From an uncultured Porphyromonadaceae bacterium (GTDB lineage Bacteria > Bacteroidota > Bacteroidia > Bacteroidales > Muribaculaceae): 35,720 nucleotides of DNA. The notes beneath the pieces were generated by a model, which worked only from the letters and a program-made list of their open reading frames with translations, was not told the origin of the DNA and did not search any database. Positions 2,612 to 30,601 of this stretch are shown one piece after another. The position numbers and the translations under genes are program-made. Where the stretch lies: positions 1 through 35,720 of the forward strand of contig CAMWUY010000005.1 in assembly GCA_947177615.1 (NCBI GenBank). The letters are read 5' to 3'. The stretch's first letter is position 1, and each line of letters opens with the position of its first letter.

Positions 2612-2658
2612 ATCTTATTTGCATACGCAAAATTAGTCAAAAATAATCATTCCTGCAA
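2612..2658 (-). promoter_or_regulatory. Leftward promoter P1 with conserved leader motif
   Basis: Read on the minus strand: TTGC (2658-2655), a 19-nt spacer, TAATTTTG (2635-2628), 5 nt, then GCAAATAAGAT (2622-2612). This fits the Bacteroidetes promoter consensus of a TTG-type box at -33 and TAnnTTTG at -7. The spacer contains TGATTATTTTTGAC directly against the -7 box. The same arrangement with the same spacing occurs at 18382-18428 and 30555-30601. It drives the leftward operon beginning at 2586. Confidence 0.75.
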
Positions 2659-2708
2659 GTTTTTGAGAGATTATTTTAATCAAATCTGCAAATTTTCCCG
2701 TTGAGAGT

Positions 2709-2739
2709 TAGGCATTCTCGGATATTTTTCGTACCTTTG
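2709..2739 (+). promoter_or_regulatory. Rightward promoter P5 of locus A
   Basis: TACCTTTG at 2732-2739 fits the Bacteroidetes -7 consensus. The -33 box 19 nt upstream is poor (TAGG). The 14 bases TTCGTACCTTTGCA at 2728-2741 are repeated exactly at 21421-21434, the start of locus B. It is divergent from P1, with about 50 bp between the outer boxes. It should drive the structured RNA and the two plus-strand genes. Confidence 0.6.
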
Positions 2740-2745
2740 CACCGA

Positions 2746-2952
2746 AGTTGAGTTACAGACAAGAGAGTCAAAAATCAACAGACATACAATAGCCTAACCG
2801 TCGTCGAACTACCACCTTGATAACTCCAGGCTATCTTAAGTTTACCCACTGGGCATTGTGCCTCTGTGTGCATACACACGCAGGACGCAACCTATTGGGT
2901 AAACGGCTGTGGTAGGCCGGACGACGTTAGGCTGCTGTCCTGCGTCTTTTTT
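2746..2952 (+). ncRNA. Candidate structured RNA or leader, locus A
   Basis: About 200 nt with nested pairing: P1 2791-2805 with 2920-2933 (14 bp, one bulge), P2 2809-2815 with 2909-2915 (7 bp), P3 2840-2848 with 2896-2904 (9 perfect bp) and P4 2861-2870 with 2875-2884 (10 positions, one mismatch, one wobble, CATA loop). A further perfect 9-bp match, ACGCAGGAC (2878-2886) with GTCCTGCGT (2937-2945), would compete with P4 and cross P1 as a pseudoknot. It is followed by TTTTTT at 2947-2952. It lies between a promoter and the gene at 2991. It may be a free small RNA ended by the T-tract or a cis-acting leader. The 5' end is estimated from the promoter. I match it to no known RNA family. Confidence 0.6.
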
Positions 2953-2990
2953 GTGGATAGTTGCCTTTAACGAGCAAATATGAAGTAACA

Positions 2991-3476
2991 ATGGTAACTA
3001 TCAGACACAACATCGACGAAAGTAAATTCAAATATCTCTGGGCCAAATACGTCAAAGGCTCCAACCTAAATAGGCACTGCGCCCAATGTGTGCCGGGAAC
3101 ATTCAGTAAGAAGTTCTCCGGTGCTTGGAATAAGGACTTACTCAGCCAACCTATACTTGCGATGGACGAGGTGCACGACGGAGATTATCAGGCTATATAC
3201 TTTTGTGGCGTTTTCAAGCAGGGTTTTTCAACAAAGAAGAACTATCCCCATAATTTACACCTTGCAGTTATCCCGGCCGAAGGGAGAACCGATACATTCA
3301 ACTTTGAAAACTGGCACATCGAGATTGAGAATGGATATATCTCTCGGATTCCAGGAGAAAATGAGTTGGACGAGCAATTCTTCAAGGAACCTTACGACTA
3401 TCATTACTACACCTGCCGCATCTTTCGGTGGATGGTGGGCTTCTTTCATCCTGAACTAATTAAACAACCGATATGA
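2991..3476 (+). CDS. Paralogue A: unknown protein with W-YV-G-NLN-HC motif
   Basis: A 161-aa protein. An upstream in-frame ATG exists at 2961, but the ATG at 2991 aligns without gaps with the start of the gene at 18363: 13 of the first 30 residues are identical. Shared motifs along the length are W..YV.G.NLN.HC (residues 17-30), Y.CGV, NLH.A, and TCR near the C-terminus. No known domain is recognised. The conserved His and Cys residues could be catalytic or metal-binding, but this is speculation. It is on the plus strand, against the general direction, downstream of the folded RNA, and its stop overlaps the next start (ATGA at 3473-3476). Confidence 0.75.
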   Translation: MVTIRHNIDESKFKYLWAKYVKGSNLNRHCAQCVPGTFSKKFSGAWNKDLLSQPILAMDEVHDGDYQAIYFCGVFKQGFSTKKNYPHNLHLAVIPAEGRTDTFNFENWHIEIENGYISRIPGENELDEQFFKEPYDYHYYTCRIFRWMVGFFHPELIKQPI

Positions 3477-4033
3477 AACAAATATTACTTACCTTATTGT
3501 GCCTAGTAGCAATCATTCCAATGCAAGCACAGAAGATCCTGAGCGATGACACTGCTAATGGAACACGCTCAATCATTACGAGCAAGGAGAATGTAAAATC
3601 CGGCAATGACCGCGTTGTAGTATACGCCGGTCTAAGCCTTATGCAATCAGATGGGGAACCGCATTATTTCCTCTCCCTCAAACTCTCGGCGATGAAGCAT
3701 TTGGCAATTAGCAAAGAAAACCGAATACTTCTAAAAGACCAAAACGGAGAAGTCATAACCCTAACAACACCGCAGGGAAGCTACGGCGCCGACACTCGCA
3801 ACGTCGGTGGATTCAATCTCTATGAGATTAACGTAGATTACCCGGTTACCTTGGAGCAGCTACAACAGTTGGCAGACGGCGTAACGAAAATTAGGATTGA
3901 GTTAGATAATGATGAACCTTTCGAGAAAGACTATAAGAAAGATAAAATCGGAAAGGTAATTCAAACCGATTTAAGCCTAATCGCCGGCGCTCTTGGCACC
4001 GACAAAAAGGCTTCATTCTCGGACGGCTTCTGA
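3473..4033 (+). CDS. Secreted protein with signal peptide, 186 aa
   Basis: The N-terminus is a clear Sec signal peptide: MK, a hydrophobic core (ILLTLLCLVAIIP) and a cleavage-like MQAQ-K at about residue 20. There is no lipobox cysteine, so the mature protein is probably periplasmic or outer-membrane associated. The mature part looks beta-rich (repeated YAGLSLMQSDG, YFLSLKLSA and VITLTTPQGSYG strands), with an acidic segment near 145-155. Start and stop overlap with paralogue A (ATGA) shows translational coupling. Host-type export from a phage gene on the opposite strand suggests a lysogenic-conversion (moron) gene. I do not recognise the family. Confidence 0.75.
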   Translation: MKQILLTLLCLVAIIPMQAQKILSDDTANGTRSIITSKENVKSGNDRVVVYAGLSLMQSDGEPHYFLSLKLSAMKHLAISKENRILLKDQNGEVITLTTPQGSYGADTRNVGGFNLYEINVDYPVTLEQLQQLADGVTKIRIELDNDEPFEKDYKKDKIGKVIQTDLSLIAGALGTDKKASFSDGF

Positions 4034-4042
4034 ACCGATATG

Positions 4043-4070
4043 AGGGTCGACGTAACACGCCGGCCCTTTA
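4043..4070 (+). terminator. Weak terminator after the plus-strand pair
   Basis: AGGGTCG-AC (4043-4051) can pair with CGCCGGCCCT (4058-4067) with one mismatch and a wobble, followed by TTTATAATT. It sits 10 bp after the stop of the secreted-protein gene, where two converging units meet. The T-tract is short, so efficiency is uncertain. Confidence 0.4.
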
Positions 4071-4301
4071 TAATTCTACTTTAGCGCGGAAGTGGTTTAT
4101 GATGTTGTAGATGGTTCGCTGGGATTTTCCATACTTATCTCCGAGTACCGCCACGCAATAGGTCGTTTTATGATCATGTTTCTTCATGGCGCGGAATTCC
4201 TCGTAGATGCAGAGGTCTTCAATGTCATTCACGTTAATTTGATTCTTCATCAGAATCTGAAGAAGGCTCTCGTTAGCCTTTATGAGTTCGTAACAGTTCA
4301 T
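4068..4301 (-). CDS. Small helix-turn-helix protein, 77 aa
   Basis: A 77-aa basic protein whose C-terminal part (residues about 42-73, including YCVAVLGDKYGKSQRTIYNI) reads as a helix-turn-helix of the Mor/TrfB type. The N-terminal 35 residues are helical. It lies 5 bp after the tape measure stop and is the last gene of the morphogenesis operon, meeting the plus-strand pair tail to tail. It could be a late or accessory transcriptional regulator. No target site can be assigned. Confidence 0.6.
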   Translation of the reverse strand: MNCYELIKANESLLQILMKNQINVNDIEDLCIYEEFRAMKKHDHKTTYCVAVLGDKYGKSQRTIYNIINHFRAKVEL

Positions 4302-4306
4302 ATCGG

Positions 4307-7300
4307 TTAGATGTTATCAAGATTTTCTATCATTTCTACACGGGCTTGCGTCTCAGTGATTTCTACAACAGACACAACTGGTTTAATCTCTTTGGCGGCT
4401 TCCTTAAAGCCGTCAGTCATCATTTCAGCATTGTCGATGGTGGTGTATGAGTTGGCGACCTGAATGGGGACACCGGCCCCAATTCCATTCATGGCAGCGA
4501 GAAGTGGTTCATACAAGCGAGTGGCCCTGGCTGTCATTACATATTCGCCGTTTGAGAGCATTGCAGGTATGCTGTCGCTCGTTCCAGAGCCTGGACCGGT
4601 AACTTTACCACCAGTCGCAAACTTGGCGCTCTTAACGGTAGATATGGCGGTCGCTACGTTGGCAAGGACTGTCGCAACAGTAGTAGCAATCGCGGCCATA
4701 TTAGCCGGGAATGGAAGAGCAGAAGCACTGGCGATACCAGACGAAAGGGCTCGGCCGGTATCAATGGCTATCTGTGCAAGAGTGATAACCTTCGCCATTT
4801 TTGCAAATGCCGAGTTTTCATCACCCAGAGCATTGAGCAAACTAATAAGACCGTTTGATACAGCTCGCGCGGCTTGTTGCTTGGCCTGCTCGTTCTTTAT
4901 ATAGGCTTCGTTGATTGCAACCTGCTTATTCAACCACTCTTGTTTAGCGGCGTTCTGCTCGGCAATCCATTCAGCATCGGTCTGTGTAGATAACTGTCCT
5001 CTTTCGATGAGAGCTTCATAAGACTTTTGAGCACTTTCTTCCTCTAATTGGAGTTTCTGTGCTTCGTAACCTCCAATAGCTTCGAGCTTGCGAGTCCTGT
5101 CGGCTTCCATTTCTTCATCAGTCATGGTGCGCCAACTATCTCGGTGGAGTTGCTTCTCGGTTTCAGAGATTGTGAGCTGTTCTATCTCGTTCCGAAGGAC
5201 CTCTCTTTGACGCTCGATAAGGATGGTTTTATTATCTTCCTCGGTCTGGGCACGTTCCTTACGGTACTTCTCACGGATAGCTTCGAGAGCTTCCTGTTTT
5301 TCGGTTTCGTTTTCATACTCTCTCTCAGCAGCCGCCAGATCAAGTTTCTCTTTGTCTTCAATAAGTTTGAGCTTGAGTGCCAACTCTTCTGCAGAACCCT
5401 TTTCAACAGCAGAGAGTTTGAGTTCAATGAGTTTGCTATCGTGCTCGATTTGGACTTTGAGTTCATCCTCATTAAACTTAGCAATAGCCTGAGCTTTCTG
5501 CTTTTCAAGAGAGTCAATAATACTGAGAATTGCGGCCCGGCTCTTCTCGGTCAGCGTAGCATCCTCTGCCAGTTTCTTCTTGTATTCCTCAATCTGGCGG
5601 TCATAGGACAATTCGAGAACCTTACGACGGGTTTCAACGGCCTGCTTGGTAATCTTGAGCAACTCATCTTCCGCCTTGCGGAGTAGTTCGGCTTCGGTCT
5701 TAGCCGGGTCTGCAGAAGAGGTTGAGGGTTTATTGGTGGAACCTCCACCTCCGCCACCAGTACCAGTGTTGCCGGTTGGTTCAGGCGTTCCGCCCCCGTT
5801 ATTATTTTTATTACCGCTATCTCCATTGCCAACAACAGTAGCATCACCACCCGAAGCCGGCTTATTCAGTGTTACCTTCTCTAATTTGGTATCCATATTG
5901 GCAAAACTGTCAAGAACGTCATCACGTATCTCTTTGGCAGTGCTTACGGCAACATCTTTTTGATTCTTATAGAAGTTGGTGACGGCACGGCCAAGGTCCT
6001 TCACACCTTCTACAGCATCTCCCCAGTGGAGAGTGAACAAACCTTTGAGTGCTCGTGCAACGCCACTGATAATGTCGCCCAGTAGTTTGAACGAATTGCC
6101 AATCGAGGCAATGCCGGCTTTAAGTATGGCCCATACAGCTTTGAAGACTGTACCTATCGTTGCAACAACACCACGAACAAGAATGGAGTCATTGTAAAAT
6201 TCGATAAACCAGTTTATGACATCTACGATTACCTCTTTGAGCTTATTCAGTGCCCCTCCTATGAAGCTCTTAATTGCTCCACCTATGCGACCAATCACAC
6301 CCTCTCCACTGTTGAAGGCATCCCACAGCTTCATTACCAGTTCAAAACAAAGAGAGATTACAGCGGTAATGATGAAGCCCTTGAACGCTGTTTTTGCAGT
6401 AGTGATAAAGCCCTTTACAGCAATACCGGCGGTCTGCATGGCACCTTTCCACCCGGTAGCCGTCGACACGGCAGCCGCATTTTCCATTGCGGTAATCTCC
6501 GCTGTCTTGGCCTTGGCGAGAGCCTTTTCTGTTTCAGCCAACTGCTTCTTCTGTACGGTGAGTTTATTAGCGATCAATTCTTTCTCCGCGCCCGATGCTC
6601 TCTCATATTGGGTTTCGAGCCGGCACATCTGCTGGGTCTGGAGTCCTCTCTGCTTCTGCAGGTCATTCACACGCTTAGTGGCGGTTTCTGCATTGGTGAT
6701 AATATCAGACTTCATTGTGGTTACGGAAGTCTTAACCATCTTAATGAGAGCCGTCAGAGAGATACCGCCAATTACAGCAGCTATCATCGTTGCCAACTCA
6801 TTCAGATTCTCCCGACAATATGCGATAATGTCAGTAATCATCTGTAATGGGCCAGTGAGAGATTCAGCCATACCACCGGAAGCCTCAGCCATCATTGCTT
6901 CTGCATCAGCGGCCAATTCTGCTTTTTGCTGTTCATACTGTGTCTGTGCCTCTTCCAACTTGGCAAGTCCTTCCTCACTCTGTCCGAACCGGGCTTCAAT
7001 AGCTGCTTTCTCCTGTTCATAGCCATCATCGATAGCCTGAGCTCTTGCAAGGATTTCTCCCTCTATCTTCTTGCTATCTCCGTGCCAGATTGATATGAGC
7101 AGACCTTCCCATGCAGACTTGAGAGAGTCAGCAGCTACTGTATAGTTCGAGAATGACTGTTCAAACATACGGGCCACTGTGTCGGCGGCATTTACACCAT
7201 TCACACCGAGATTGTCAGTCATGAAAGCGTCGAGGTCTTCGATACTATTCAAGAGAGCCATTACAGAACCGGCGGCTCTACTACCAAAGATGTCAGCAAG

Positions 7301-8527
7301 ATCCTGCATCTTCGTATTGGACTCCATGATACCGCTATCATTAAGACGCTTGAGCGTAGCAATAAGACCTTCCTCCTTGATGGTATTTTCGTCGATAGAC
7401 AAATTCCATTTCTGCATTGCCTGAAGACCCTGCGGAGAAGTGGCTACAAGGCCCGTGAGAGCCTGCTTCATCACGGTACCGGCATCAGCACCCTTGATAC
7501 CATTGTTTGCAAGGATGGCAAGGGCGGCATTAGTTTCTTCCAGCGATATACCAAGAGTATAAGAGAGCGGCGCTGTGTTCTTCAAACCATCAGCGAGCAA
7601 CTTTATATCGGTAGCTGACTTCGCACATACGGCCGACATAACATCTCCGACACGGTTCACTTGGTCGACACTGAGGTGGAAGGCGTTGAGTTGGTTGGTT
7701 ACAATATCAGCGGCTTCTGCAAGCTCTATTTTGTTAGCCTGAGCCAACTGCAGTGTACCGGCAAGTACCGAAGTCGCATTGGCGGCGCTCAAACCGTTTC
7801 GGGTCAGGTTTTCCAACGCCTCGGCAGCTTCGGTCGCGGTGTATCGAGTGGTAGAGCCCAAACGTTCAGCTTCCCGACGCATCATTATAAACTCGACGGT
7901 CGTGGCATTGGTAATTGATTGTACCTTTGCCATCTGGTCGTCAAATGTGGTACCGGCTTGTTTTACCTGGTCTGTGAAAGACTTGAAGCCAGTTATACCA
8001 GCGACTGCGAGAAATGCTTTCGTAAGGTCTTTAACCTTGCTCTCCACCTTACCCAGTCCGTCAACTGCTTCCGGGTAATTACCTACGTTTCGGTAGAAGC
8101 GGAGTGTTTCCCCCTCTGCCTCTTTGAGCTCGGTGGTAATACCGACAATCTTTTTCTTCAATTCCTCTCCGGCGGCGCTTTCTCGTTCACTCCGGGACAT
8201 GGCATCGTAAGCCCGCGTAGCCTCCGAGAGTTGTGCGCGCAGTTGGTTAAGGGAACCTACCTGTTCCTGATTGGCTTTATTTTGGGTCTGGATTTGCCGT
8301 GTCAGCACGTTAGAAGCCTGCTGACTGAATCTCAACTGTTGATCGGCGGCCGCCATACTGCGGTGGTATTCTTCCGTTGAGATTTGACCGCTCTTGTGCA
8401 TTTCGGATAGAGTCTTCATCGCCTGGCGAGTATCTTCGATTTCCTTGCGATACTTGCCGAGCGCGTTCACTGCCGATTCATAGCGGACCTGTATATCAAG
8501 TATTTTGGTTTGAACGTCTGATGCCAT
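4307..8527 (-). CDS. Phage tail tape measure protein, 1406 aa
   Basis: The length of this protein sets the tail length, and it scaffolds tail tube assembly. Residues 1-150 are coiled coil. A TP901-type tape measure core follows at about 170-450, with FDDQMAKVQSITNAT at 195-209 and the typical TRYTATEAAEAL region. Hydrophobic segments lie near 565-590 and 715-740, probably for membrane insertion during DNA entry. A Gly/Thr/Ser-rich linker is near residue 920, followed by a long Glu/Lys coiled coil. The C-terminus has GGKVTGPGSGTSDSIPAMLS, a common ending of Bacteroidetes tape measures. It follows the 744-aa tail protein directly. A tape measure implies a long-tailed (siphovirus or myovirus) particle. 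Confidence 0.93.
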   Translation of the reverse strand: MASDVQTKILDIQVRYESAVNALGKYRKEIEDTRQAMKTLSEMHKSGQISTEEYHRSMAAADQQLRFSQQASNVLTRQIQTQNKANQEQVGSLNQLRAQLSEATRAYDAMSRSERESAAGEELKKKIVGITTELKEAEGETLRFYRNVGNYPEAVDGLGKVESKVKDLTKAFLAVAGITGFKSFTDQVKQAGTTFDDQMAKVQSITNATTVEFIMMRREAERLGSTTRYTATEAAEALENLTRNGLSAANATSVLAGTLQLAQANKIELAEAADIVTNQLNAFHLSVDQVNRVGDVMSAVCAKSATDIKLLADGLKNTAPLSYTLGISLEETNAALAILANNGIKGADAGTVMKQALTGLVATSPQGLQAMQKWNLSIDENTIKEEGLIATLKRLNDSGIMESNTKMQDLADIFGSRAAGSVMALLNSIEDLDAFMTDNLGVNGVNAADTVARMFEQSFSNYTVAADSLKSAWEGLLISIWHGDSKKIEGEILARAQAIDDGYEQEKAAIEARFGQSEEGLAKLEEAQTQYEQQKAELAADAEAMMAEASGGMAESLTGPLQMITDIIAYCRENLNELATMIAAVIGGISLTALIKMVKTSVTTMKSDIITNAETATKRVNDLQKQRGLQTQQMCRLETQYERASGAEKELIANKLTVQKKQLAETEKALAKAKTAEITAMENAAAVSTATGWKGAMQTAGIAVKGFITTAKTAFKGFIITAVISLCFELVMKLWDAFNSGEGVIGRIGGAIKSFIGGALNKLKEVIVDVINWFIEFYNDSILVRGVVATIGTVFKAVWAILKAGIASIGNSFKLLGDIISGVARALKGLFTLHWGDAVEGVKDLGRAVTNFYKNQKDVAVSTAKEIRDDVLDSFANMDTKLEKVTLNKPASGGDATVVGNGDSGNKNNNGGGTPEPTGNTGTGGGGGGSTNKPSTSSADPAKTEAELLRKAEDELLKITKQAVETRRKVLELSYDRQIEEYKKKLAEDATLTEKSRAAILSIIDSLEKQKAQAIAKFNEDELKVQIEHDSKLIELKLSAVEKGSAEELALKLKLIEDKEKLDLAAAEREYENETEKQEALEAIREKYRKERAQTEEDNKTILIERQREVLRNEIEQLTISETEKQLHRDSWRTMTDEEMEADRTRKLEAIGGYEAQKLQLEEESAQKSYEALIERGQLSTQTDAEWIAEQNAAKQEWLNKQVAINEAYIKNEQAKQQAARAVSNGLISLLNALGDENSAFAKMAKVITLAQIAIDTGRALSSGIASASALPFPANMAAIATTVATVLANVATAISTVKSAKFATGGKVTGPGSGTSDSIPAMLSNGEYVMTARATRLYEPLLAAMNGIGAGVPIQVANSYTTIDNAEMMTDGFKEAAKEIKPVVSVVEITETQARVEMIENLDNI

Positions 8528-10762: not shown

Positions 10763-10764
10763 AA

Positions 10765-12243: not shown

Positions 12244-12719
12244 TCTACATTGTCATTTATGGTCGACACTTGGTCGAGCAGATTGATAACCATTGCCTCG
12301 CTCATCTTATCCAGTTCCTCATTGAGAACCGAGGTATAGATGTCGTTATACTGTTTGTTTCGGAAGAGTCTGGTGCCCTTCTTCATTATGTTGAAAGCCA
12401 CAGCGCCGGCAAACGAGCGCATAGCTGTATCTTTATCCTGACGTACACCTGCTTTGGAATGAGCAGATATACCCTTAGCCTTAGCCCATGCCGCTATGAT
12501 CTCAACGAACCCCATAGGAATAGCACCCGGGCCACGTCCACGCTCCATTGCAAGGAAAGATTTCGAGCCCCAAAGAATACCATGCCCGTCACTGACCTCA
12601 ACTCGCAGTGAGGCCACACTCTTACCACTGGCATTACGGCCACTGGAAGCCATACGCTCGGCTATCTTGGTCTTGATATTCTCAAGATGAGATTTCAGAA
12701 GGTCGTTGGTCGTCGGCAT
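12240..12719 (-). CDS. HK97-gp10-like head-tail joining or tail completion protein
   Basis: A 159-aa basic protein. The middle has RGRGPGAIPMGFVEIIAAW (about 80-98) followed by a charged segment and FAGAVAFNIMKKGTRLFRN. This resembles HK97-gp10-type neck or tail completion proteins and Mu-like virion morphogenesis proteins. Such proteins join the filled head to the tail. Its place, immediately after the acidic 176-aa protein and before the tail proteins, fits that role. It overlaps the next gene by 4 bp. Confidence 0.6.
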   Translation of the reverse strand: MPTTNDLLKSHLENIKTKIAERMASSGRNASGKSVASLRVEVSDGHGILWGSKSFLAMERGRGPGAIPMGFVEIIAAWAKAKGISAHSKAGVRQDKDTAMRSFAGAVAFNIMKKGTRLFRNKQYNDIYTSVLNEELDKMSEAMVINLLDQVSTINDNVE

Positions 12720-12721
12720 GG

Positions 12722-18363: not shown

Positions 18364-18381
18364 TTCGTTTTTGATTAAATA

Positions 18382-18428
18382 ATCTTATTTGCAATTACAA
18401 AGATACTGAAATTTAATCACTTATGCAA
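18382..18428 (-). promoter_or_regulatory. Leftward promoter P2 with conserved leader motif
   Basis: On the minus strand: TTGC (18428-18425), a 19-nt spacer, TATCTTTG (18405-18398), 5 nt, then GCAAATAAGAT (18392-18382) and AATCAAAAA before the ATG at 18363. Spacing is identical to P1 and P4. The spacer carries TGATTAAATTTCAG, a diverged form of the spacer element in P1. It should drive paralogue B and the helicase-repressor-terminase-tail operon. Confidence 0.75.
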
Positions 18429-18466
18429 ATTTCAGCGATGGATTTATAATCCTATCTGCAAGATTT

Positions 18467-21265: not shown

Positions 21266-21290
21266 TGCAGATATGATTATATTTCAAGTG

Positions 21291-21321
21291 CAAAGATAGT
21301 CAAAAATAACGATATAGCCAA
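21291..21321 (-). promoter_or_regulatory. Leftward promoter P3 of the ParB operon
   Basis: On the minus strand: TTGG (21321-21318), a 19-nt spacer, TATCTTTG (21298-21291). The spacer ends GTTATTTTTGAC, matching P1. The GCAAATAAGAT leader element is only vaguely present (GAAATATAAT), so this promoter is a diverged member of the group. The ATG of the first ParB lies about 25 nt downstream. Confidence 0.7.
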
Positions 21322-21385
21322 CTATTACTAAAAGAAATAATCAATATGATTATTTTGGTCTTGATTGGCCGTTATTTTTGACTAT
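21296..21385. repeat. 16-bp perfect inverted repeat plus central palindrome between divergent promoters
   Basis: ATAGTCAAAAATAACG at 21296-21311 is repeated exactly in inverted orientation at 21370-21385. One arm overlaps the -7 box of P3, and the other lies just upstream of the P6 -33 box. In the middle, AATAATCA-ATA-TGATTATT (21336-21354) is a perfect 8-bp palindrome with a 3-nt centre. The layout resembles an operator region bound by a dimeric repressor at several sites. Confidence 0.6.
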
Positions 21386-21401
21386 TTTAACCCCTAAATA
21401 A

Positions 21402-21432
21402 TTGGAGATTTGGCTGAAAATTCGTACCTTTG
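21402..21432 (+). promoter_or_regulatory. Rightward promoter P6 of locus B
   Basis: TTGG at 21402-21405, a 19-nt spacer, then TACCTTTG at 21425-21432, a good Bacteroidetes promoter. The core TTCGTACCTTTGCA (21421-21434) is identical to that of P5 in locus A. It points away from the ParB operon and towards a region with hairpins and no credible gene. Confidence 0.7.
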
Positions 21433-21437
21433 CATCA

Positions 21438-21557
21438 TTGATATTTAATTAGAGTCCCGGAACGCTCACAAAAGAGCGCTCCTCTTGGGTTTTTGATTGA
21501 ATATCTTATTTGCATTTAAGCGAGTTTGCCCGTGAGGGTCGACTCGCCTTTTTATTT
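21438..21557 (+). ncRNA. Candidate small RNA, locus B
   Basis: Downstream of P6 there is no plus-strand gene but two hairpins with T-tracts. Hairpin 1: CCC..CGCTC (21456-21467) pairs with GAGCG..GGG (21474-21489), followed by TTTTT. Hairpin 2: GCGAGT..CCC (21520-21531), GTGA tetraloop, GGG..ACTCGC (21536-21547), followed by CTTTTTATTT. A transcript of about 55 or 115 nt would result. Between the hairpins lies an inverted copy of the conserved leader motif (21503-21513). The 5' end is estimated from the promoter. Confidence 0.5.
21520..21557 (+). terminator. Terminator with GTGA tetraloop
   Basis: GCGAGT-TTG-CCC pairs with GGG-TCG-ACTCGC around a GTGA loop, a near-continuous 12-bp stem with one mismatch. 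The T-tract CTTTTTATTT follows on the plus strand. It ends the candidate locus B transcript just before the converging gene at 21552. Confidence 0.65.
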
Positions 21558-21737: not shown

Positions 21738-21739
21738 CT

Positions 21740-22105: not shown

Positions 22106-22116
22106 ATTGTTGGCAT

Positions 22117-24080: not shown

Positions 24081-24081
24081 C

Positions 24082-24318: not shown

Positions 24319-24787
24319 TCTTTTTTCGATAGTTGAATACTTGTGCTTTTATACCCTCCCGGCGCATGATAGAGCAAAGTGTGGCAACACTTCCCAATGA
24401 TGATGACTCTTGGTAAGCAGCTATCTTCACTAAATGCACGTACTTACCATTCTCATCAGCCTCTGCCAACCCCCAATTCTCCGGAAGTTCATCTTCTTTA
24501 ATCAATCCTTTGGGTGCGAAATACCACCTGAAATTTCCAATCCCTTCAATGGGATTCTTACGGCATTTCTTTTTCTTATCTCTGAGAAAATCTGCGCGAG
24601 AAGTCTTGACTTCTACAACTGAAACAGACCAGCCATTAGTGGCCCATACATCAGGGATTTCTTCGCCATAGGTCATTAACTCTACAGCGACGTATTTATG
24701 ACCCATGCGACAATCAAAACCTCCTTTGTGGAGTATTCTCGCGGCTTCCTCACACATCGTGTGATGGAGTGTATTGCTTTTACTCAT
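24305..24787 (-). CDS. PD-(D/E)XK nuclease-like protein (MmcB-type), 160 aa
   Basis: A 160-aa protein with the core D46 (IPDVWA), then E59-V-K61 (VVEVKTS) and a following SRADFLRDKK, which matches the active site of PD-(D/E)XK nucleases resembling MmcB-like repair proteins. The later aromatic WYFAPKG stretch is also typical. It may act in DNA repair, recombination or processing of phage DNA. It overlaps the HTH gene upstream by 4 bp. Confidence 0.8.
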   Translation of the reverse strand: MSKSNTLHHTMCEEAARILHKGGFDCRMGHKYVAVELMTYGEEIPDVWATNGWSVSVVEVKTSRADFLRDKKKKCRKNPIEGIGNFRWYFAPKGLIKEDELPENWGLAEADENGKYVHLVKIAAYQESSSLGSVATLCSIMRREGIKAQVFNYRKKNGST

Positions 24788-25530
24788 GATACTTTTTTTG
24801 CTGGTTGGAACTTTATCCCGAACTTCCTTGCATTGCTTTCTATTCTCGGCCGACGCATTTCTTCGTTCGGATAGAAATAGAGGTTATGATCATCCGGGCT
24901 TTCAACATAACCTCGTTTGCGAAGATTGTATCTGCAGTTTATTTTGCTTTGAGGCTGCTTCACAAAACGAAATTTGGTACGCTGTTCAAAGCCCCATGCA
25001 AGAGTTCTACGCTTATCACTGTCATAGGTTCTGCGCCATGAAGCACGTCGCTTTTCTTGACATTCAGCATATTTTTTAGGAGATAGTCTATCTCGATTAC
25101 TTTCTCCCGGCTTAAAACGAGGACTATTCGGAATCTTAAATCCTTTGGGTGGATAGGTTCCATTCTTTCTATGACTTTCAGCAGCGGCTTTTTGAGCGGC
25201 ATCTTGGGTCTTTTTCATGAATTGCCTCGTCTTGGTTAAGCCATTTTCTCTTGCGACTCGGTGCAAAGTCGAATGGCTTATACCGAATTTGCTCATTATG
25301 TCTTCGTTCCTGGTATGCTTATAATGGTTGATAATCCAAGTAAGCTCTTTTTCAGTAAGAGTCTTTCCGGGAGAAACAGCCTGAGGAATAGGTCTGCCAT
25401 ATAATTTATGCTCCAGAGATTTTGAAGTGCGGCCAAGCCTTACGGCTATTTCGCTTAATGGCAATCCCAATTCTTTCAACCGATGAAGCTCGTCAATTTC
25501 TTCTTGCGACCACTGCTTATTTTTCGCCAT
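24784..25530 (-). CDS. DNA-binding protein with two HTH motifs, 248 aa
   Basis: Residues 1-45 look like a SANT/GcrA-type HTH (WSQEEIDELHRLKELGLPLS, then EIAVRLGRT). Residues 55-100 hold a second HTH (TEKELTWIINHYK, then DIMSKFGISHSTLHRVAREN). The following part is basic and rich in Arg and Lys (KRRASWRRTYDSDKRR). No nuclease motif is visible, although such proteins resemble the DNA-recognition parts of homing endonucleases. It overlaps both neighbours. Confidence 0.75.
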   Translation of the reverse strand: MAKNKQWSQEEIDELHRLKELGLPLSEIAVRLGRTSKSLEHKLYGRPIPQAVSPGKTLTEKELTWIINHYKHTRNEDIMSKFGISHSTLHRVARENGLTKTRQFMKKTQDAAQKAAAESHRKNGTYPPKGFKIPNSPRFKPGESNRDRLSPKKYAECQEKRRASWRRTYDSDKRRTLAWGFEQRTKFRFVKQPQSKINCRYNLRKRGYVESPDDHNLYFYPNEEMRRPRIESNARKFGIKFQPAKKVS

Positions 25531-25882
25531 AATCTATTTTCGATTTTCTAATGTTACAGCACTCTTCTCTGGTGTTTAACAGAGTCAAATGGCATGCGCG
25601 AAAGTCTTTGTTCTCTTTACCATAATTATACAATTTACATAGTTCGGACCACCGCCGAATTATAGGTTCAAACCATGGAAATATTGCTATTATAGATGGA
25701 AAATCCTTGTCTGGTTCAACTTCGCAGTATTCCACGAGGTCAATGCAATATTCTAAGTCGGCGCTATCATATGGAATATCATATTTCCAACTATTCGGGT
25801 TCGAAGGTTTGACACCCATAAGACCGGCCCACATTGTCCGCGATGAAATACCGTTGTTATGAGTGATAATCTACTCTGTCAT
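25517..25882 (-). pseudogene. Small phage gene with an in-frame TAG near its start
   Basis: The frame is open from 25517 to an ATG at 25834 (105 aa). Upstream of that ATG the frame stays open (residues IITHNNGISSRT) back to a TAG at 25873-25871, preceded by ATG-ACA-GAG at 25882-25874. I recall related proteins that begin with an NNGISS-like segment directly after a short start, so the TAG probably replaces one codon of the original gene. It may be a nonsense mutation, a suppressed stop, or a truncated gene that begins at 25834. The function is unknown. Residues include FPWFEPIIRRWSELCKLY, a helical end. Confidence 0.55.
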
Positions 25883-25904
25883 TTTATTTCTGTTCATCAG
25901 ATAC

Positions 25905-25935
25905 TTATATTTTTAATTCCCCCGAATTCGGGGTA
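25905..25935 (-). terminator. Palindrome after the frameshifted gene
   Basis: CCCCGAATTCGGGG at about 25921-25934 is a perfect 14-bp palindrome. On the minus strand it is followed by AATTAAAAATAT, which is T-poor and so a weak terminator at best. It lies just after the stop of the gene at 25942. Confidence 0.35.
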
Positions 25936-25941
25936 TTTAGA

Positions 25942-26339
25942 TTACACGAATAGCGTAGGAAACAATTTCTTTAACTCAGAGTGGTTCGGAGCATAAGTTG
26001 AATATTTTGTAGTGGAGTCTATCAGCCTGAAGCGGTAGTTGTCATACGTCTTAGTGCAATATTCATCCTTATACATTGCTCCTCGCAGATCTACTGTACT
26101 ATATCTGCCTCTTGACTTCTTGACATCAGAATCATCGACCTCAACTGTAATGCACACATCGAAATCTACAATACCCGATAACCAGTGCTTTGCGTCCTCT
26201 GGATCTTCCTTGAAAAACAAAAGCCTACCGACGTGGAAGCACCGCCTCTTTTCACACTATGGTCTGTGTTATTCACAAGCAAGTCGCCACGCTGGAAGGC
26301 TTCAAATTCTTTGGCAGAACAAAATCTATGAAGTATCAT
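25942..26339 (-). pseudogene. Phage gene split by a one-base frameshift
   Basis: An ATG at 26339 overlaps the upstream stop (ATGA) and begins an open frame MILHRFCSAKEFEAFQRGDL continuing to FCF at about 26214, then it runs off into TAG. The correct continuation, FKEDPEDAKHWLSGIVDFDV, is in the next frame and is open to 25942. Adding one T to the run of five T's (26213-26217 as A's on the plus strand) restores one protein of about 132 aa. I recall similar full-length proteins in Bacteroidales phages. The cause may be a real mutation, an assembly error, or a programmed -1 shift (no classic slip site seen). Confidence 0.7.
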
Positions 26340-26602
26340 AACTTTTTATCTTGTGGGAATTCATTGAACCTACGACAAATTTCTTCGCCTAACTTACAGG
26401 CATCTTCATAAGTTTCTCTGAAATCGACATATAGTCCAGATGAATACAACTTTATTTCTCCAATTGGGATATTCCATCCGCAACCGGGCTCCTTCACACA
26501 TAGCAGAATTTCACCATGGTTATCAGAGGGAACTAAGACAAGCGAGCTTTCCTTCGTATCGAAGCTACCCGACACAAACTTTATTTTAGGGGTTATTTCC
26601 AT
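26336..26602 (-). CDS. Hypothetical protein, 88 aa
   Basis: An 88-aa protein with strand-rich N-terminal part (TPKIKFVSGSFDTKES, then SLVLVPSDNHGEILLCV) and helical C-terminus (FRETYEDACKLGEEICRRFN). No domain is recognised. It overlaps the upstream gene by 17 bp and the downstream gene by 4 bp (ATGA), so it is likely coupled to both. Confidence 0.7.
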   Translation of the reverse strand: MEITPKIKFVSGSFDTKESSLVLVPSDNHGEILLCVKEPGCGWNIPIGEIKLYSSGLYVDFRETYEDACKLGEEICRRFNEFPQDKKL

Positions 26603-27245
26603 TTTCTACGAGTGATATTTCTCTGTCGACCTCGACATCAACAGCAGCCATAATTATTATATCGATATTGGGTTCTAACTGAAATCTGGCGGGAGAGCAA
26701 GACTTAGGAAGATGTAGGATTTTAATAGAATCAAGACCAAGATCATGCGCGGCCTCAGCCATTATTATTAGTTCATTGTTGCGGAAAGCCACTCCATTGA
26801 TTGAAGTGTAGAGCCATTCGCGATAGAAATTCTTTGTCTTAACTTTACCATATCCATTGCAGATAGGACAATCAAAATATTTCTGATGTTCCTCTCCGTC
26901 CGAGTCTTCATAGGTCCACTCAACTTCGCCACTCCCTTCACATTCATCACACTCAGCAGCTTTACCTTCTACGCGACGTTCTTCACATTGGGGTATGCTT
27001 TTAAAGGTTTCCACAAGCACACTGATAGGCAATTCAATATCACAAGTTGGTTCAGGGAATTGCGGCAAGTTTTTAGGCGATTCTACGGGTTCATACACTC
27101 GTTTCAAATCGTTATATGGAACACGCACCATAATAGTACGATTTGTAGCATATACAAATCCCTCCCTGTAAAAAGGCTTATTGATACTTTCGGGCCACTC
27201 TAACGTGTTTACAAACCTATTGAGAAATTTCTCTTCGTCTTTCAT
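26586..27245 (-). CDS. Clamp-like protein with zinc-finger insertion, about 219 aa
   Basis: The start is the ATG at 27245, or the GTG at 27251 which would give a GTGA overlap. The N-terminus has FVYATNRTIMVRVPYNDLK, which resembles the ATDG-type segment of beta clamps. The middle (about 98-135) is a DnaJ-like zinc finger: CDECEGSGEVE and CPICNGYGKVK. The C-terminus again has clamp-like strands (LIIMAEAAHDLGLDSIKIL). A phage sliding clamp or clamp-like fold with a zinc insertion is my inference. Several proteins of the window end in clamp-binding-like peptides. Confidence 0.6.
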   Translation of the reverse strand: MKDEEKFLNRFVNTLEWPESINKPFYREGFVYATNRTIMVRVPYNDLKRVYEPVESPKNLPQFPEPTCDIELPISVLVETFKSIPQCEERRVEGKAAECDECEGSGEVEWTYEDSDGEEHQKYFDCPICNGYGKVKTKNFYREWLYTSINGVAFRNNELIIMAEAAHDLGLDSIKILHLPKSCSPARFQLEPNIDIIIMAAVDVEVDREISLVENGNNP

Positions 27246-27247
27246 CT

Positions 27248-27430
27248 TCACGTAATTATGAATTGAACATTGAGATAGAACTCACGTTGAAGTCGAACAA
27301 TTTGCACATAGTCTTCCACTCTCTCGCCATACGGAAGAAAGATTACACGTTCTTTGGTATTTACGCGAATTCCTTTCTTCCGTAGACGATAGATTAGGCA
27401 GTGGGCTGCTATGCAAAGAGGCTTTGACAT
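27248..27430 (-). CDS. Small hypothetical protein, 60 aa
   Basis: A 60-aa basic protein (RLRKKGIRVNTKERVIFLPY) with no recognised domain. It lies between the Tad2-like and the clamp-like genes, 3 bp after the former, and its stop overlaps the possible GTG start of the latter. The role is unknown. Confidence 0.55.
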   Translation of the reverse strand: MSKPLCIAAHCLIYRLRKKGIRVNTKERVIFLPYGERVEDYVQIVRLQREFYLNVQFIIT

Positions 27431-27433
27431 CTA

Positions 27434-28135
27434 TCAGCGGACGACCTCCCAGTCTTTAGCGAAGACATCACTGATTGACGGCACCCAAGAATCAGCTCGG
27501 CCGGTGGTGTCATTATAAATCAGGCATTGACTGGTATAGTCGATAACCTCTTTACCTTCCATAATGAAATCTTTGGCGGCTTGTGGCAGGGATTGCATTT
27601 TGGGAATAATCTCTGACGTGATATGCGCCGGCACCTGCTTGAAGACTACAAGTCCCTTACCGTTCCAACCTTCACGACGGAGAACAAAGCCTTTTTCAAG
27701 CAGGGTGATAGCGATGCCGAAAGAGAAAGTACCCATACTCCCTTCGCCGGTTTCCATCAGTGTAGTACGAGTTGCAAGGAGATTCATGTAGTCTCCCATT
27801 GCAACATTCTGGGCTACCAAGAGTGCCCGGATATCGGTTCCGCAACTGTTGAACTTGTCGCTCCGAATGAACGCATTGATGTTGCCACTTTTCTTGGCGA
27901 GCTCATCGTACTCAAGATGCATTCTTTCGACAGGAGTATCGGCCAGACGGTAGAGATTTTCAAAAACCTCCTTGGGGAGCCATCCCTTGTCTTTGTAATC
28001 ATCTTGCATGAGGTAACCCTCACTTTCGCTCAGTTCCTCAACGTAAGCAGATGGAGGAATAATACCCTCCTTGAATGCCTCACCGTAGGTCATAGGTTTG
28101 GCTTGCACCTCTTCGATTCCTATATACTTTTTCAT
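27434..28135 (-). CDS. Three-domain protein with C-terminal DUF2829 (Tad2-like anti-Thoeris) domain
   Basis: A 233-aa protein in three parts. Residues 1-65 match an N-terminal domain common in Bacteroidales phages (PMTYGEAFKEGI, GWLPKEVFENLYRLAD). Residues 68-125 resemble the crAss001_48 family (ERMHLEYDELAKK, helical). Residues 136-233 are DUF2829: FGIAITLLEKGFVLRREGWN, GKGLVVFKQVPAHI, then WVPSISDVFAKDWEVV. DUF2829 is the fold of Tad2, which sequesters the cyclic ADP-ribose signal of Thoeris defence. Whether this fused form binds a signal is unproven. Confidence 0.78.
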   Translation of the reverse strand: MKKYIGIEEVQAKPMTYGEAFKEGIIPPSAYVEELSESEGYLMQDDYKDKGWLPKEVFENLYRLADTPVERMHLEYDELAKKSGNINAFIRSDKFNSCGTDIRALLVAQNVAMGDYMNLLATRTTLMETGEGSMGTFSFGIAITLLEKGFVLRREGWNGKGLVVFKQVPAHITSEIIPKMQSLPQAAKDFIMEGKEVIDYTSQCLIYNDTTGRADSWVPSISDVFAKDWEVVR

Positions 28136-28151
28136 ACTTAGTATGTGGAGT

Positions 28152-28454
28152 TTATTTAGCCGCTCCAGGGCTTACTTGATTGATTTTAACTTCAAATATT
28201 CGGCAATATGTATTAAACATAATGCTTTCAACATGGCTATCTTCCGGGAATGGAGTATTTCCGGCGATGAAATCTTGATAGCACTCAGGACACAACCATT
28301 GATCGAGAACTGCAACATAATATCCCATAGTGGGAGATTTCATACAGTAGTCACAAACTCCAATAGCTCCTTTCGGGCCTAGCTTTTCAACTATCTCCGC
28401 TCTGCTAATTTTGAGAACTTTGAAGCCAGAAGCATTTTCAGCAATCTCAGCCAT
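28152..28454 (-). CDS. Zinc-ribbon protein, 100 aa
   Basis: A 100-aa protein. CDYC at residues 34-37 and CPEC at 55-58 (VCDYCMKSP and LCPECYQDF) form a four-Cys zinc ribbon. The rest has no known domain. The start is 3 nt after the TAG stop of the upstream gene and in the same frame. Small zinc-ribbon proteins of this kind are common in Bacteroidales phages. Confidence 0.75.
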   Translation of the reverse strand: MAEIAENASGFKVLKISRAEIVEKLGPKGAIGVCDYCMKSPTMGYYVAVLDQWLCPECYQDFIAGNTPFPEDSHVESIMFNTYCRIFEVKINQVSPGAAK

Positions 28455-28457
28455 ATC

Positions 28458-28907
28458 CTATGAAAAGATTGCAAAGCAGGCTACAAGCCAACCTGTGAGA
28501 GATAGTATGAGGAAAAGCACATTCCACTTCCATTGGTTTTGCAGTCGAGCCCGGCATTTGTTTACCATTTCAAGGTCGAGTTTATACCGTTTACGTATCT
28601 GCTTCTCCATCCACTTCTGGACCGCAGCTTGAACTTTACCGACTTCCTTATACGATAGTGCAGATACTGAATTTTGGAATGGTTTAGAATCAGGGCTGGA
28701 GTATATTCCTGAATGCGCATAGACTACCGGTTTGATGTGATACACGTCATCCCAATCTCTGCCGACATCCATTTTCAATTCGATAGTGAGATTGCAATGA
28801 TTTTTCATCTCGCGCTTGATTTCTTCTTCGAGAGTCTTAGTGCTTAGGTCAGCCCTTTTCTTGAGCTGTTCATATTCATACTCTGAGAGTTGTACTATTT
28901 TATTCAT
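28458..28907 (-). CDS. Membrane-anchored hypothetical protein, 149 aa
   Basis: A 149-aa protein. The N-terminus (KIVQLSEYEYEQLKKRAD) and the following helical part are soluble. The C-terminus has one hydrophobic segment (NVLFLILSLTGWLVACFAIF) consistent with a tail-anchored membrane protein. It ends with TAG, showing that TAG is used as an ordinary stop here. The function is unknown. It lies next to a second small membrane protein. Confidence 0.7.
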   Translation of the reverse strand: MNKIVQLSEYEYEQLKKRADLSTKTLEEEIKREMKNHCNLTIELKMDVGRDWDDVYHIKPVVYAHSGIYSSPDSKPFQNSVSALSYKEVGKVQAAVQKWMEKQIRKRYKLDLEMVNKCRARLQNQWKWNVLFLILSLTGWLVACFAIFS

Positions 28908-28908
28908 A

Positions 28909-29094
28909 TTAGCGTCGCTTTTTGGTATCGAGTTTTGCTATTATCCAGTGACATAGCTTGGTCCACCACTTATAGAGGATTTCACAGGTGGAATCAACAA
29001 TGCTAAGTGCCAACAGTATTGGAAAGAATAAGATCGTGAGAAGCATTACAATGACGCGCCCCCACATAATCTTCATTTTAGGTCTACTTCTCAT
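28909..29094 (-). CDS. Small membrane protein, 61 aa
   Basis: A 61-aa protein with a basic N-terminus, a hydrophobic segment (VIVMLLTILFFPILLALSIV), then an amphipathic basic tail (LDTKKRR). It overlaps the end of the radical SAM gene by 11 bp and is followed closely by another membrane protein. A role in superinfection or envelope effects is possible but not shown. Confidence 0.6.
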   Translation of the reverse strand: MRSRPKMKIMWGRVIVMLLTILFFPILLALSIVDSTCEILYKWWTKLCHWIIAKLDTKKRR

Positions 29095-29914
29095 TTTCAG
29101 GAAACATGTTATATGATGAACTTACAAAGTGAGGAGGTAAATCGTCACGTGAAATACCGAGATAATCTATGAAGCTATCTTTTAGGTAAATACGGCAGTC
29201 TGTGGCTTCTTTGACAAGCCATTCAAAAAGTTTCTCTAAGTGATTGCGATTGTAGAAGTTTTTACCTTTGCCGGAGATAAGTCCAACTTTATACAAATCG
29301 CAGAATCCGCGCGTCGCAGCAATCATATTTCGGGACATTGCCGGTGTTATTATGGGCTCGATGCTTGCAAAAGTCTTGAAGCCTAAATCGTGAAGCTCTC
29401 GCATTGCCTCAATTCGCTCATCGGTAAGTGAGGCTCTTGGCTCCTTTTCGTCAAATCCTGTGAGGGTAAAGCCGAATGCAATACGGTGTTTACCTTCTCC
29501 ATAAAGAATAGTTTGGATTTCGGTTCGCGTAATAAATTCATCAAGCCAATCGACTCTCTTAGTGAGAATCTTTACATTGATACCTCTAAAAATGGCTTCC
29601 TCCATTGCCTTGAATGTGAGGTCTCTTGTTTCTAGGAGTAGAGGATCAGTTGTGAATGAGAATAACAGTCCGGATGAGCCTATCTTATCTTCGCATTTAT
29701 CTAACTCCTGGCAAAATACGTTAAAAGCATGTCGCTCTGAGGTAAAACACTTCTTGAGGTGAGGCATGGTGTCCCATGCGTGGCTCATAACGCCACGTTT
29801 GCAAAAGCAGTATTCACAATCGTTGGAGCAACCAGTAAAGAAGTTGCAGGCCCATTGTGCGTATTCGCCGGCTTTACCTTTTGGCGTATATATGGCTTTT
29901 CCCTTAAAATTCAT
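29084..29914 (-). CDS. Radical SAM protein (SPL/DUF-type), about 276 aa
   Basis: The cluster motif CSNDCEYC (CxxxCxxC) is near residue 30, with TTDPLL and LTKRVDWLD later, and GFTLTGFDE in the second half, as in SPL-like radical SAM proteins. The ATG at 29914 is preferred. A TTG three codons earlier would overlap the upstream stop. It ends in TAG. It is the second radical SAM gene of the window and is not closely related to the one at 22117. The substrate is unknown, with DNA or nucleotide lesions as one option. Confidence 0.85.
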   Translation of the reverse strand: MNFKGKAIYTPKGKAGEYAQWACNFFTGCSNDCEYCFCKRGVMSHAWDTMPHLKKCFTSERHAFNVFCQELDKCEDKIGSSGLLFSFTTDPLLLETRDLTFKAMEEAIFRGINVKILTKRVDWLDEFITRTEIQTILYGEGKHRIAFGFTLTGFDEKEPRASLTDERIEAMRELHDLGFKTFASIEPIITPAMSRNMIAATRGFCDLYKVGLISGKGKNFYNRNHLEKLFEWLVKEATDCRIYLKDSFIDYLGISRDDLPPHFVSSSYNMFPENEK

Positions 29915-29919
29915 GTTTA

Positions 29920-30177
29920 TCAATTTAGGTTTATGGTATTCATTTCTCGAATCCTCATAATTCTCACATACTCTTCCACAGCCTCGACAACTACGGAAGC
30001 ATAATCCTCTTCTTTGAGCATTATTGTTACCAATCCTCTTTTAAGAGTATCTCGGTCTGTGCATGAGAAAACTTTTACTTTTTCACTTTCCGGCACCAGA
30101 GCAAACCAGCTATTCGCTGTTATGAGTTCATCAATAATGCTGGACCGAAGTTGGTCTTTGCTACTTTTACCTCCCAT
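29920..30177 (-). CDS. Small hypothetical protein, 85 aa
   Basis: An 85-aa protein with an N-terminal helical part (LRSSIIDELITANSWFALVP) and strand-rich centre. No domain is recognised. It lies 2 bp after the upstream gene and is followed by the radical SAM gene after 5 bp. The function is unknown. Confidence 0.65.
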   Translation of the reverse strand: MGGKSSKDQLRSSIIDELITANSWFALVPESEKVKVFSCTDRDTLKRGLVTIMLKEEDYASVVVEAVEEYVRIMRIREMNTINLN

Positions 30178-30179
30178 TA

Positions 30180-30524
30180 TTAGTCCTCGGAATTTTTATT
30201 GCAGAGTTTTGTTATTACCCATTCCGCAAAATCATCTTGAATTTTAGCAGCATCTTCAGGCGTAGAACATAACGATTTTAAGGCACCCCAACCTCTGACA
30301 GTGAGGAATGGTTTGCCGTTCATTAGAATCTCCGGTGTTGAATATGTGAGATTGGGATTTTTAGTTGAGGTCTGCTCGTCATTTAAAATTTGGCATAGCC
30401 TATCGAGCATCGCTTCGATATTATGGTCGAGAGTTGCGGCCATAAGAGCCATGTGGCCGTTATTGGACCACACATATACTCCGTCGGAGTAAAAAGGGGG
30501 TTCGTAGAACTCTCTAAATGTCAT
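30180..30524 (-). CDS. Hypothetical protein, first gene of the accessory operon
   Basis: A 114-aa protein with aromatic N-terminus (FREFYEPPFYSDGVYVW) and helical C-terminal half. No domain is recognised. It is the first gene after promoter P4, whose leader has the conserved AATCAAAAATCCGAC sequence before this ATG. The position suggests early or regulated expression. The function is unknown. Confidence 0.7.
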   Translation of the reverse strand: MTFREFYEPPFYSDGVYVWSNNGHMALMAATLDHNIEAMLDRLCQILNDEQTSTKNPNLTYSTPEILMNGKPFLTVRGWGALKSLCSTPEDAAKIQDDFAEWVITKLCNKNSED

Positions 30525-30554
30525 TTGTAGAGTCGGATTTTTGATTATTAAATC

Positions 30555-30601
30555 ATCTTATTTGCACCTGCAAAGATAGTAATAAATAATCATATACGCA
30601 A
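30555..30601 (-). promoter_or_regulatory. Leftward promoter P4 with conserved leader motif
   Basis: On the minus strand: TTGC (30601-30598), a 19-nt spacer, TATCTTTG (30578-30571), 5 nt, GCAAATAAGAT (30565-30555), then AATCAAAAATCCGAC and the ATG at 30524. The spacer contains TGATTATTTATTAC against the -7 box. Geometry is the same as P1 and P2. It starts the long accessory operon. Confidence 0.75.

Follow-up and report, generated by a model that had tools for sequence, protein, structure and literature searches.

A phage-encoded small RNA as the probable partner of a leader shared by dispersed operons in a Bacteroidales phage family

The 35,720-nt contig CAMWUY010000005.1 of an uncultured Porphyromonadaceae bacterium (assembly GCA_947177615.1), referred to here as the window, carries three phage operons, P1, P2 and P4, that are read from the minus strand and share one long promoter module, TTGC-N19-TAnnTTTG-N5-GCAAATAAGAT, followed by a leader that continues with AATCAAAAA ahead of the ATG. 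This common layout, described in the original prediction, holds: the full modules score 96.6 (P1), 79.9 (P2) and 62.3 (P4) with a module score trained on 71 sequences, P1, P2 and P4 themselves included, and three mononucleotide-shuffled windows give no score above -36.6. The original prediction missed one more exact copy of the leader word, the fourth, at 21503-21514; here the informative strand is the opposite one, on which the copy falls inside a predicted small RNA gene oriented opposite to nearly all of the phage genes. From sequence and comparison, it is very likely that the shared leader is the target of this phage-encoded, trans-acting antisense RNA, which would probably be a translational repressor of a dispersed regulon. 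The features concerned are as follows.

2612-2658, minus strand: P1 module, from sequence and module score; -33 and -7 boxes with TGATTA spacer at 2628-2658
2597-2623, minus strand: P1 leader target site, TGCAAATAAGAT...AATCAAAAA, predicted duplex -32.0 kcal/mol
18382-18428, minus strand: P2 module
18368-18393, minus strand: P2 leader target site, predicted duplex -30.9 kcal/mol
30555-30601, minus strand: P4 module
30538-30566, minus strand: P4 leader target site, predicted duplex -32.4 kcal/mol
21402-21432, plus strand: small RNA promoter, TTGG-N19-TACCTTTG; the TGATTA spacer seen in the modules is absent
21438-21553, plus strand: predicted small antisense RNA gene of about 116 nt, from fold, covariance model and covariation
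21440-21505, plus strand: 5′ stem-loop, with the second pairing block TTTTTGATT in its 3′ arm; helices 1 and 2 covary
21506-21519, plus strand: unpaired linker TTATTTGCATTTAA, the exposed seed in the predicted fold, complementary to the P1, P2 and P4 leaders
21520-21553, plus strand: intrinsic terminator hairpin and T-run in the predicted fold; helix 3 covaries, with 94.7 % of cells paired

The 5′ end of the small RNA is an estimate, placed 5 nt after the -7 box, and the predicted fold of the window RNA has an energy of -48.2 kcal/mol (z -6.81). Eleven contigs were compared: the window (WIN), BARN (the contig of Barnesiella sp. WM24), G002, G003, G004, G300, G301, G302, G308, G313 and G314. 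The same locus with a copy of the leader word is present in nine of the ten relatives viewed, the copy in G004 being without small RNA features. On the opposite strand, the locus takes the form of a short gene: a -7 box, then a stem-loop, the anti-leader sequence and a terminator that includes a T-run. By eye, all ten small RNA promoters have the -7 box and eight, including that of the window, have TTG at the usual distance (it is absent in G302 and one base closer in G308). All ten predicted RNAs have fold z-scores between -3.4 and -7.8, and the RNA strand is more stable than its complement in nine of them, as well as in all four RNAs found later. As in trans-acting small RNAs, there is by sequence an own promoter and an intrinsic terminator, together with a conserved predicted structure that exposes a pairing region.

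A covariance model made from five group-A sequences matches the remaining five RNAs at E 1.3e-7 to 4.8e-5, four of these over a shortened 5′ stem, and it discovered the RNA of G315, a held-out lineage, at E 1.5e-9. Among 14 further records with module matches, the model matches four (G315, G421, G422 and G424), and at E ≤1e-4, where stricter filters lose weak matches, it matches one of 393 genomes of the order, the source genome. Aligned model matches place the small RNA in 14 contigs, as 13 distinct sequences. On these 14 matches, 25 of 37 pairs vary on both sides, which none of 500 shuffles equalled; for this tool that count is not a probability, since related sequences can score higher than shuffles.

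The pairing results point to the same locus. Of the 7,930 pieces of 37 nt taken from the two strands of the window, the one at 21484 (plus strand) is the strongest partner shared by the three leaders, the worst of its three duplexes being -31.2 kcal/mol (over all pieces, mean -6.4 and sd 1.9). Seven more pieces are listed, each either antisense of a leader or a neighbour of this piece within the small RNA. At a duplex cut-off of -13 kcal/mol, targets could not be told from shuffled seeds, whereas -24 separated them. At the latter cut-off, three of the 46 minus-strand genes in the window have a pairing upstream region; the three best-pairing genes are those that head the P4, P1 and P2 operons, and the fourth best reaches -22.4. 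Each of ten phages has between 2 and 12 such genes, counts that were reached by none of 40 shuffled seeds in any of them. Outside all models, on three further contigs assigned below to the same phage (C12, C14 and C66), six of seven module-like matches pair with the window RNA at -26.7 to -39.3, the seventh at -15.8. A whole-contig scan of the main strand of ten contigs at -24 found 72 sites in modules; outside modules, 22 more were start-associated and 51 were not. The complementarity thus extends, beyond chance, to several targets encoded elsewhere, as is expected of a trans-acting RNA.

Variation between lineages supports the pairing. Across five lineages (groups A to E), the cognate combination of RNAs and leaders is the best of 120 possible assignments, and each leader group is paired best by its own RNA group. 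In the second block, group A has AATCAAAAA in the leader and TTTTTGATT in the RNA, group C (G308) has CTTCAAAAC and GTTTTGAAG, and group D (G301) has CATTTAACC and GGTTAAATG. In group E, the held-out G315, it is the seed that has changed: the RNA reads TTCTTATTT where the other ten RNAs have ATCTTATTT, and nine of the 12 G315 leaders read AAATAAGAA, which is found in none of the 82 leaders of the other ten phages, 71 of which read AAATAAGAT. The RNA gene, its fold, its complementarity to the leaders and its co-change with them are supported by sequence and comparison.

A number of observations weigh against this interpretation. Ten of the 14 further module records have no model match at E 0.001; by listed lengths, nine of these are fragments of 4-31 kb and the tenth is 20 kb. 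The 34-kb G004 also carries modules and has a best model match of only E 0.178. With E relaxed to ≤1, matches appear in 18 of 21 records; many of these are weak, and such matches are treated as background. The covariation alignment was itself fitted to the model, and its group-B and group-D rows hold a shortened 5′ stem only, so the cleanest covariation is that of the terminator helix, which all rows hold. Seed identity among the first ten RNAs is by construction, as these were located through an exact seed complement. The G301 RNA strand folds no better than its complement. In group B, the small RNA promoters of G313 (12.8) and G003 (8.4) score weakly as modules, and the distinction between the two promoter types is therefore incomplete.

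Pairing, too, has its exceptions. Some module leaders pair poorly, for example BARN 61903 at -13.0, and 29 opposite-strand sites in the ten contigs also reach -24; given this background, a site can be trusted only if it lies in a module or is among the strongest of the start-associated ones. For the leaders of group B taken together, the advantage of the cognate RNAs is only 0.6 kcal/mol, and those of G313 pair with group-A RNAs at -26.1, slightly more strongly than with their own RNA at -24.1. Within group A the best-pairing RNA is likewise sometimes not the phage's own; specificity therefore resides between lineages rather than single phages.

The original prediction would have been refuted by a motif equally frequent across the host chromosome, and this is not what a search of the element and its relatives found. 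The 12-mer TGCAAATAAGAT has nine copies in the 2.2-Mb metagenome-assembled genome (MAG) that holds the window, all on contigs C5, C12 and C14, and none of the reversed pattern. A loose core-promoter pattern occurs at 13 places in the MAG, eight of them on C5, C12 or C14, two on C66 and three elsewhere. The doubled element is present in one of 295 genomes drawn from the order, namely the source genome. In four related genomes, matches to the core pattern fall on the phage contig in eight of nine cases for WM24 (G299), ten of ten for G300, and seven of seven for both G301 and G308; G302 has four module-like matches besides the two on its contig C27, and nine further genomes (G303-G307 and G309-G312) have one or two each. 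The genome pattern search gave 33 stretches in all. In a first viral pattern scan, five of 14 stretches (L006, L008, L011, L015 and L018) look like chance matches, and a distant blastn search with one module against the phage collection returned a single weak match (E 0.2).

Copies of GCAAATAAGAT are also found without a promoter within operons, shortly before the next start codon (G300 12275, 55541 and 6021; BARN 60180). On the strength of these promoterless copies, the leader is regarded as an RNA-level element that is separable from the promoter. At two internal start sites there are two tandem leader copies (G300 12256-12291 and G002 81684-81719), and at these the complementarity extends into the terminator arm of the small RNA (GCAAACTCGCTCA).

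The phages that carry these modules form a family in the Bacteroidales; they are roughly 90-100 kb in size, probably prophages, and have 9-15 modules on each nearly complete contig. At a score above 12 there are 88 module matches in the 11 contigs, 86 of them on the main coding strand; the two others are at G300 98476 (30.7) and at G313 73422 (12.8), the latter being the G313 small RNA promoter. Homologues of the genes on contig C5 of G300 (G300:C5) are carried by C12 (24, mean identity 64 %), C14 (22, 68 %) and C66 (13, 72 %), so the window's phage spans at least four contigs, about 94 kb in total. From about 1.5 to 98.5 kb, G300:C5 consists mostly of sequence with homologues in other contigs or in the MAG, with about 15 kb of unshared genes on one side, and the WM24 contig extends some 46 kb past the virus record G001. 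The unshared flank and this overhang suggest that members of the family are integrated prophages.

It is proposed that the small RNA would be transcribed from its own promoter at 21402-21432 (plus strand), opposite to nearly all phage genes, and would adopt a fold in which an unpaired linker separates the 5′ stem-loop from the terminator hairpin. This linker, UUAUUUGCAU, would nucleate pairing with UGCAAAUAAGAU, close to where each module transcript begins, and the duplex would then extend through the second block (AAUCAAAAA in the window lineage), opening the small RNA's own stem. Such strand exchange would be needed because the second block sits within that stem. Predicted joint folds are 11.7-13.1 kcal/mol better than the separate folds for P1, P2 and P4. 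Over 53 leaders pairing at ≤-22 (of 60 with an assigned start and 82 in total), the duplex ends a median of 2 nt before the start codon, and pairing starts a median of 3 nt after the -7 box. As the duplex would cover the leader nearly to the start codon, a translational block is its most likely effect. Predicted openness from -20 to +3 falls upon pairing from 0.72 to 0.33 at P1, 0.59 to 0.18 at P2 and 0.48 to 0.12 at P4. By estimate the target leaders in the window are 36, 29 and 41 nt long, which leaves little room for premature transcription termination. Many phage operons would in this way be blocked in translation together, so that the prophage is kept quiet or lytic expression is timed. 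P2 precedes the terminase operon, and P1 and P4 precede other operons, an arrangement that would suit a global off-switch if sign and purpose are as supposed here. That the small RNA is expressed, that its pairing represses and that it serves lysogeny we infer from the sequence. Confidence is high for a base-pairing regulon, moderate for repression, which is read from the predicted geometry, and low to moderate for a role in immunity.

The 5′ arm of the small RNA may possibly be a second pairing arm. Words like AATTAAATATCAAT, which match the complement of this arm, stand 3-20 nt before start codons at 35630 and 19886 in the window (minus strand), at G002 46994 and at G300 46821, and in G003 and G313 the word GGAATTGTATTA, located 15-22 nt ahead of start codons, corresponds likewise to the complement of the 5′ arm of their own RNA.

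The same observations have been considered under other explanations. Were the regulon controlled by protein only, a phage DNA-binding protein would bind TGCANNNNNGATTA upstream, at the -33 box and, as a third operator, in the leader. This would account for copies that recur at 33/34-bp steps in the window and close relatives, with no clustering of the reversed motif, and for a conserved promoter spacer that is rare in host sequence. A DNA operator, however, predicts no co-change with an antisense RNA; the leader word is found promoterless before internal genes, and the G308 and G315 leaders lose the operator-like form yet still pair with their own small RNA. This explanation is considered improbable. 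The least probable is that the modules are ordinary strong host promoters, made alike by recombination and without a regulator. Their -33 and -7 boxes do fit the usual Bacteroidota promoter, and one phage (G003) has several identical cores, but the P2 locus retains its own spacer ending, AAATTTCAG, in five contigs (WIN, BARN, G002, G300 and G302), so the copies have not simply been homogenised, and the co-change with the small RNA would be left unexplained.

Nor is it at all probable that the main role of the leader is as a translation-start element, the hosts being a group not reliant on Shine-Dalgarno sequences, with the antisense locus as an incidental inverted copy. Leader copies do often lie shortly before start codons, within operons as well, and comparable elements are described in Cluster K mycobacteriophages (PMC3203893); an incidental copy would nevertheless not be expected to have a promoter, a covarying fold and a terminator in many phages, or an RNA arm that changes together with the leaders in five lineages. 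An activating small RNA, stabilising its targets by 5′-end protection for example, is a variant of the preferred explanation, with which its probability overlaps, and is judged rather unlikely: pairing that begins so near the predicted 5′ end of the mRNA is in its favour, and the fall in predicted start-region openness at all three window targets is against it. Regulation of the leader by a base-pairing small RNA, probably repressive, is therefore preferred.

RNA pairing cannot explain the TGATTA spacer and the upstream copy, as both precede the expected start of transcription. The promoter half is probably a separate layer, recognised by a phage DNA-binding protein. The features of this layer, and the genes it precedes, are as follows.

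2628-2690, minus strand: full promoter module of P1, including the upstream copy TGCAGATTTGATTA at 2677-2690
18398-18460, minus strand: promoter module of P2, upstream copy at 18447-18460
30571-30632, minus strand: promoter module of P4, upstream copy at 30619-30632
21291-21321, minus strand: P3 promoter, divergent from the small RNA and not among its predicted targets
21336-21354: inverted repeat AATAATCA-ATA-TGATTATT between P3 and the small RNA promoter, a candidate operator
2293-2586, minus strand: first gene under P1
17893-18363, minus strand: first gene under P2; helicase, XRE and terminase genes follow downstream
30180-30524, minus strand: first gene under P4
20594-21265, minus strand: first gene under P3 (cluster 3), ParB-like by sequence reading alone

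The usual promoter of the primary sigma factor in Bacteroidota has a -33 TTTG and a -7 TAnnTTTG. P1, P2 and P4 fit this type, with the -33 element about 19 nt upstream of the -7 box, and read TTGC in place of TTTG. The span given in the original prediction is correct as far as it goes, and the module reaches further upstream, with a copy of TGCANNNNNGATKA 32-33 bp beyond the copy that overlaps the -33 box in each module; the second copy of this type at P4 reads TGCG. As for the P2 module, a gene of cluster 0 is preceded by a module in nine of 11 contigs, the window counted. P3 had been taken for a diverged form of the module with a worn leader: its promoter boxes are present, and the shared leader is absent (module score 5.2), its leader region reaching only -12.2 kcal/mol with the small RNA, unlike the pairing of P1, P2 and P4. 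The phage-wide regulon and the shared leader function that had been proposed are both supported, with a phage small RNA acting by base pairing, rather than a protein, as the probable partner of the leader.

A shared regulator binding in the spacer, also part of that proposal, is plausible, given a spacer that the phages conserve and that host sequence seldom contains; no binder was identified, and the suggested XRE proteins (cluster 4 in nine of 11 contigs, two XRE genes in the window) show no link to the modules. The inverted repeat at 21336-21354 is exact in G002 and G300 and has one or two differences in G302 and BARN, all group-A phages, and may belong to the DNA-binding regulator of the promoter layer. 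Other candidates for this regulator are a 77-aa protein, WYL_2 and ParB-like proteins. The 77-aa protein is encoded after the tape measure gene at 4068-4301 (minus strand) of the window and is present in eight of 11 contigs; its relative in G002 has a weak match to the Mor activator (E 0.0017). The leader as a third direct-repeat operator (TGCANNNNNGATTA at 33/34-bp steps) fails in groups C and E and was dropped, since RNA pairing explains the leader better; the two upstream copies stand.

Elsewhere in the window, a second structured RNA-like region lies at 2740-2960 (plus strand; z -5.64, none of 200 shuffles as stable), with a TACCTTTG box upstream and a T-run near its end. It has 90 % identity in BARN, 88 % in G300, 84 % in G002 and, over part of its length, 69 % in G004. 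Rfam at the gathering score has no match anywhere in the window, either in this region or in the small RNA. Proteins identified by family scans are, in the window, terminase, an SNF2-type helicase and XRE regulators; the relatives yielded PRTRC, ParB-like and WYL_2 proteins and reverse transcriptase. The closest of 45 phage records matching the terminase is a 5-kb fragment (64.7 % identity), and the next has 44.4 %. A PRTRC-like cassette occupies 31376-35614 (minus strand), with ThiF in the window and PRTRC_E, Prok-E2_D and Prok_Ub in G002. In G300, a reverse transcriptase gene (L135:2334-3812, minus strand) adjoins the gene for a 2,752-aa protein, and the two are possibly a diversity-generating element.

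Among known systems, the CI RNA of satellite phage P4 appears closest in logic: a phage RNA pairs with untranslated sequence of a phage transcript and genes are kept off (PMC4825925). As described in the available part of that source, CI RNA is processed from the primary transcript, has its targets, seqA and seqC, upstream and downstream of CI, and acts through transcription termination in prophage immunity (PMC4825925). The window RNA, in contrast, is not processed from a transcript that carries its targets; it has its own predicted promoter on the opposite strand, many targets in separate and distant operons, and a predicted pairing that extends to the start codon. Phage antisense RNAs that control phage genes by pairing include P22 sar (ant), lambda OOP (cII) and BTP1 STnc6030 (tailspike), each acting mainly on one mRNA (PMC12197685), whereas here a repeated target element would make a regulon. 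VpdS of phage VP882 resembles the present RNA in affecting several phage and host mRNAs, and differs in that its description, in the accessible text of the source, has no dispersed repeated target element (PMC12197685). The same portion of this 2025 review of phage small RNAs covers RNAs with one or few targets and no dispersed target element (PMC12197685).

Dispersed repeats are known from mycobacteriophages. The SAS/ESAS elements of Cluster K are short repeats before many starts, nearly all in one orientation, with no exact SAS copy in the hosts named in the source; in the text available they are proposed to act in translation initiation, with an RNA or protein partner left open and none named (PMC3203893). 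The leader, as a repeated element shortly before many start codons, is likened to SAS by position and not by sequence, and is not classed as SAS. Cluster O phages have dispersed, conserved 17-bp repeats within one phage group, which differ in being dyad-symmetric, mostly away from promoters and proposed to bind dimeric proteins, according to the part of the source at hand (PMC4351075). No report of this small RNA and leader system was found in the open-licence literature searched.

A repeated target before many operons, co-evolving with one RNA, would amount to regulon-scale RNA control of a phage. That this RNA is a master regulator of a large temperate phage family, with a tag on most operons and a lineage-specific code of tag and RNA that possibly confers superinfection immunity, is a tentative proposal, for which the balance is at present slightly unfavourable. 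If it is true, one small RNA would be the RNA counterpart of a phage repressor protein, and lineage-specific codes could give lineage-specific superinfection immunity. To our knowledge, few tools exist for Bacteroidales. The five natural pairs of tag and RNA make specificity testable with natural variants and may provide RNA regulators for this order, and the system gives a handle on a large phage family for which the phage records searched contain no complete relative that is close.

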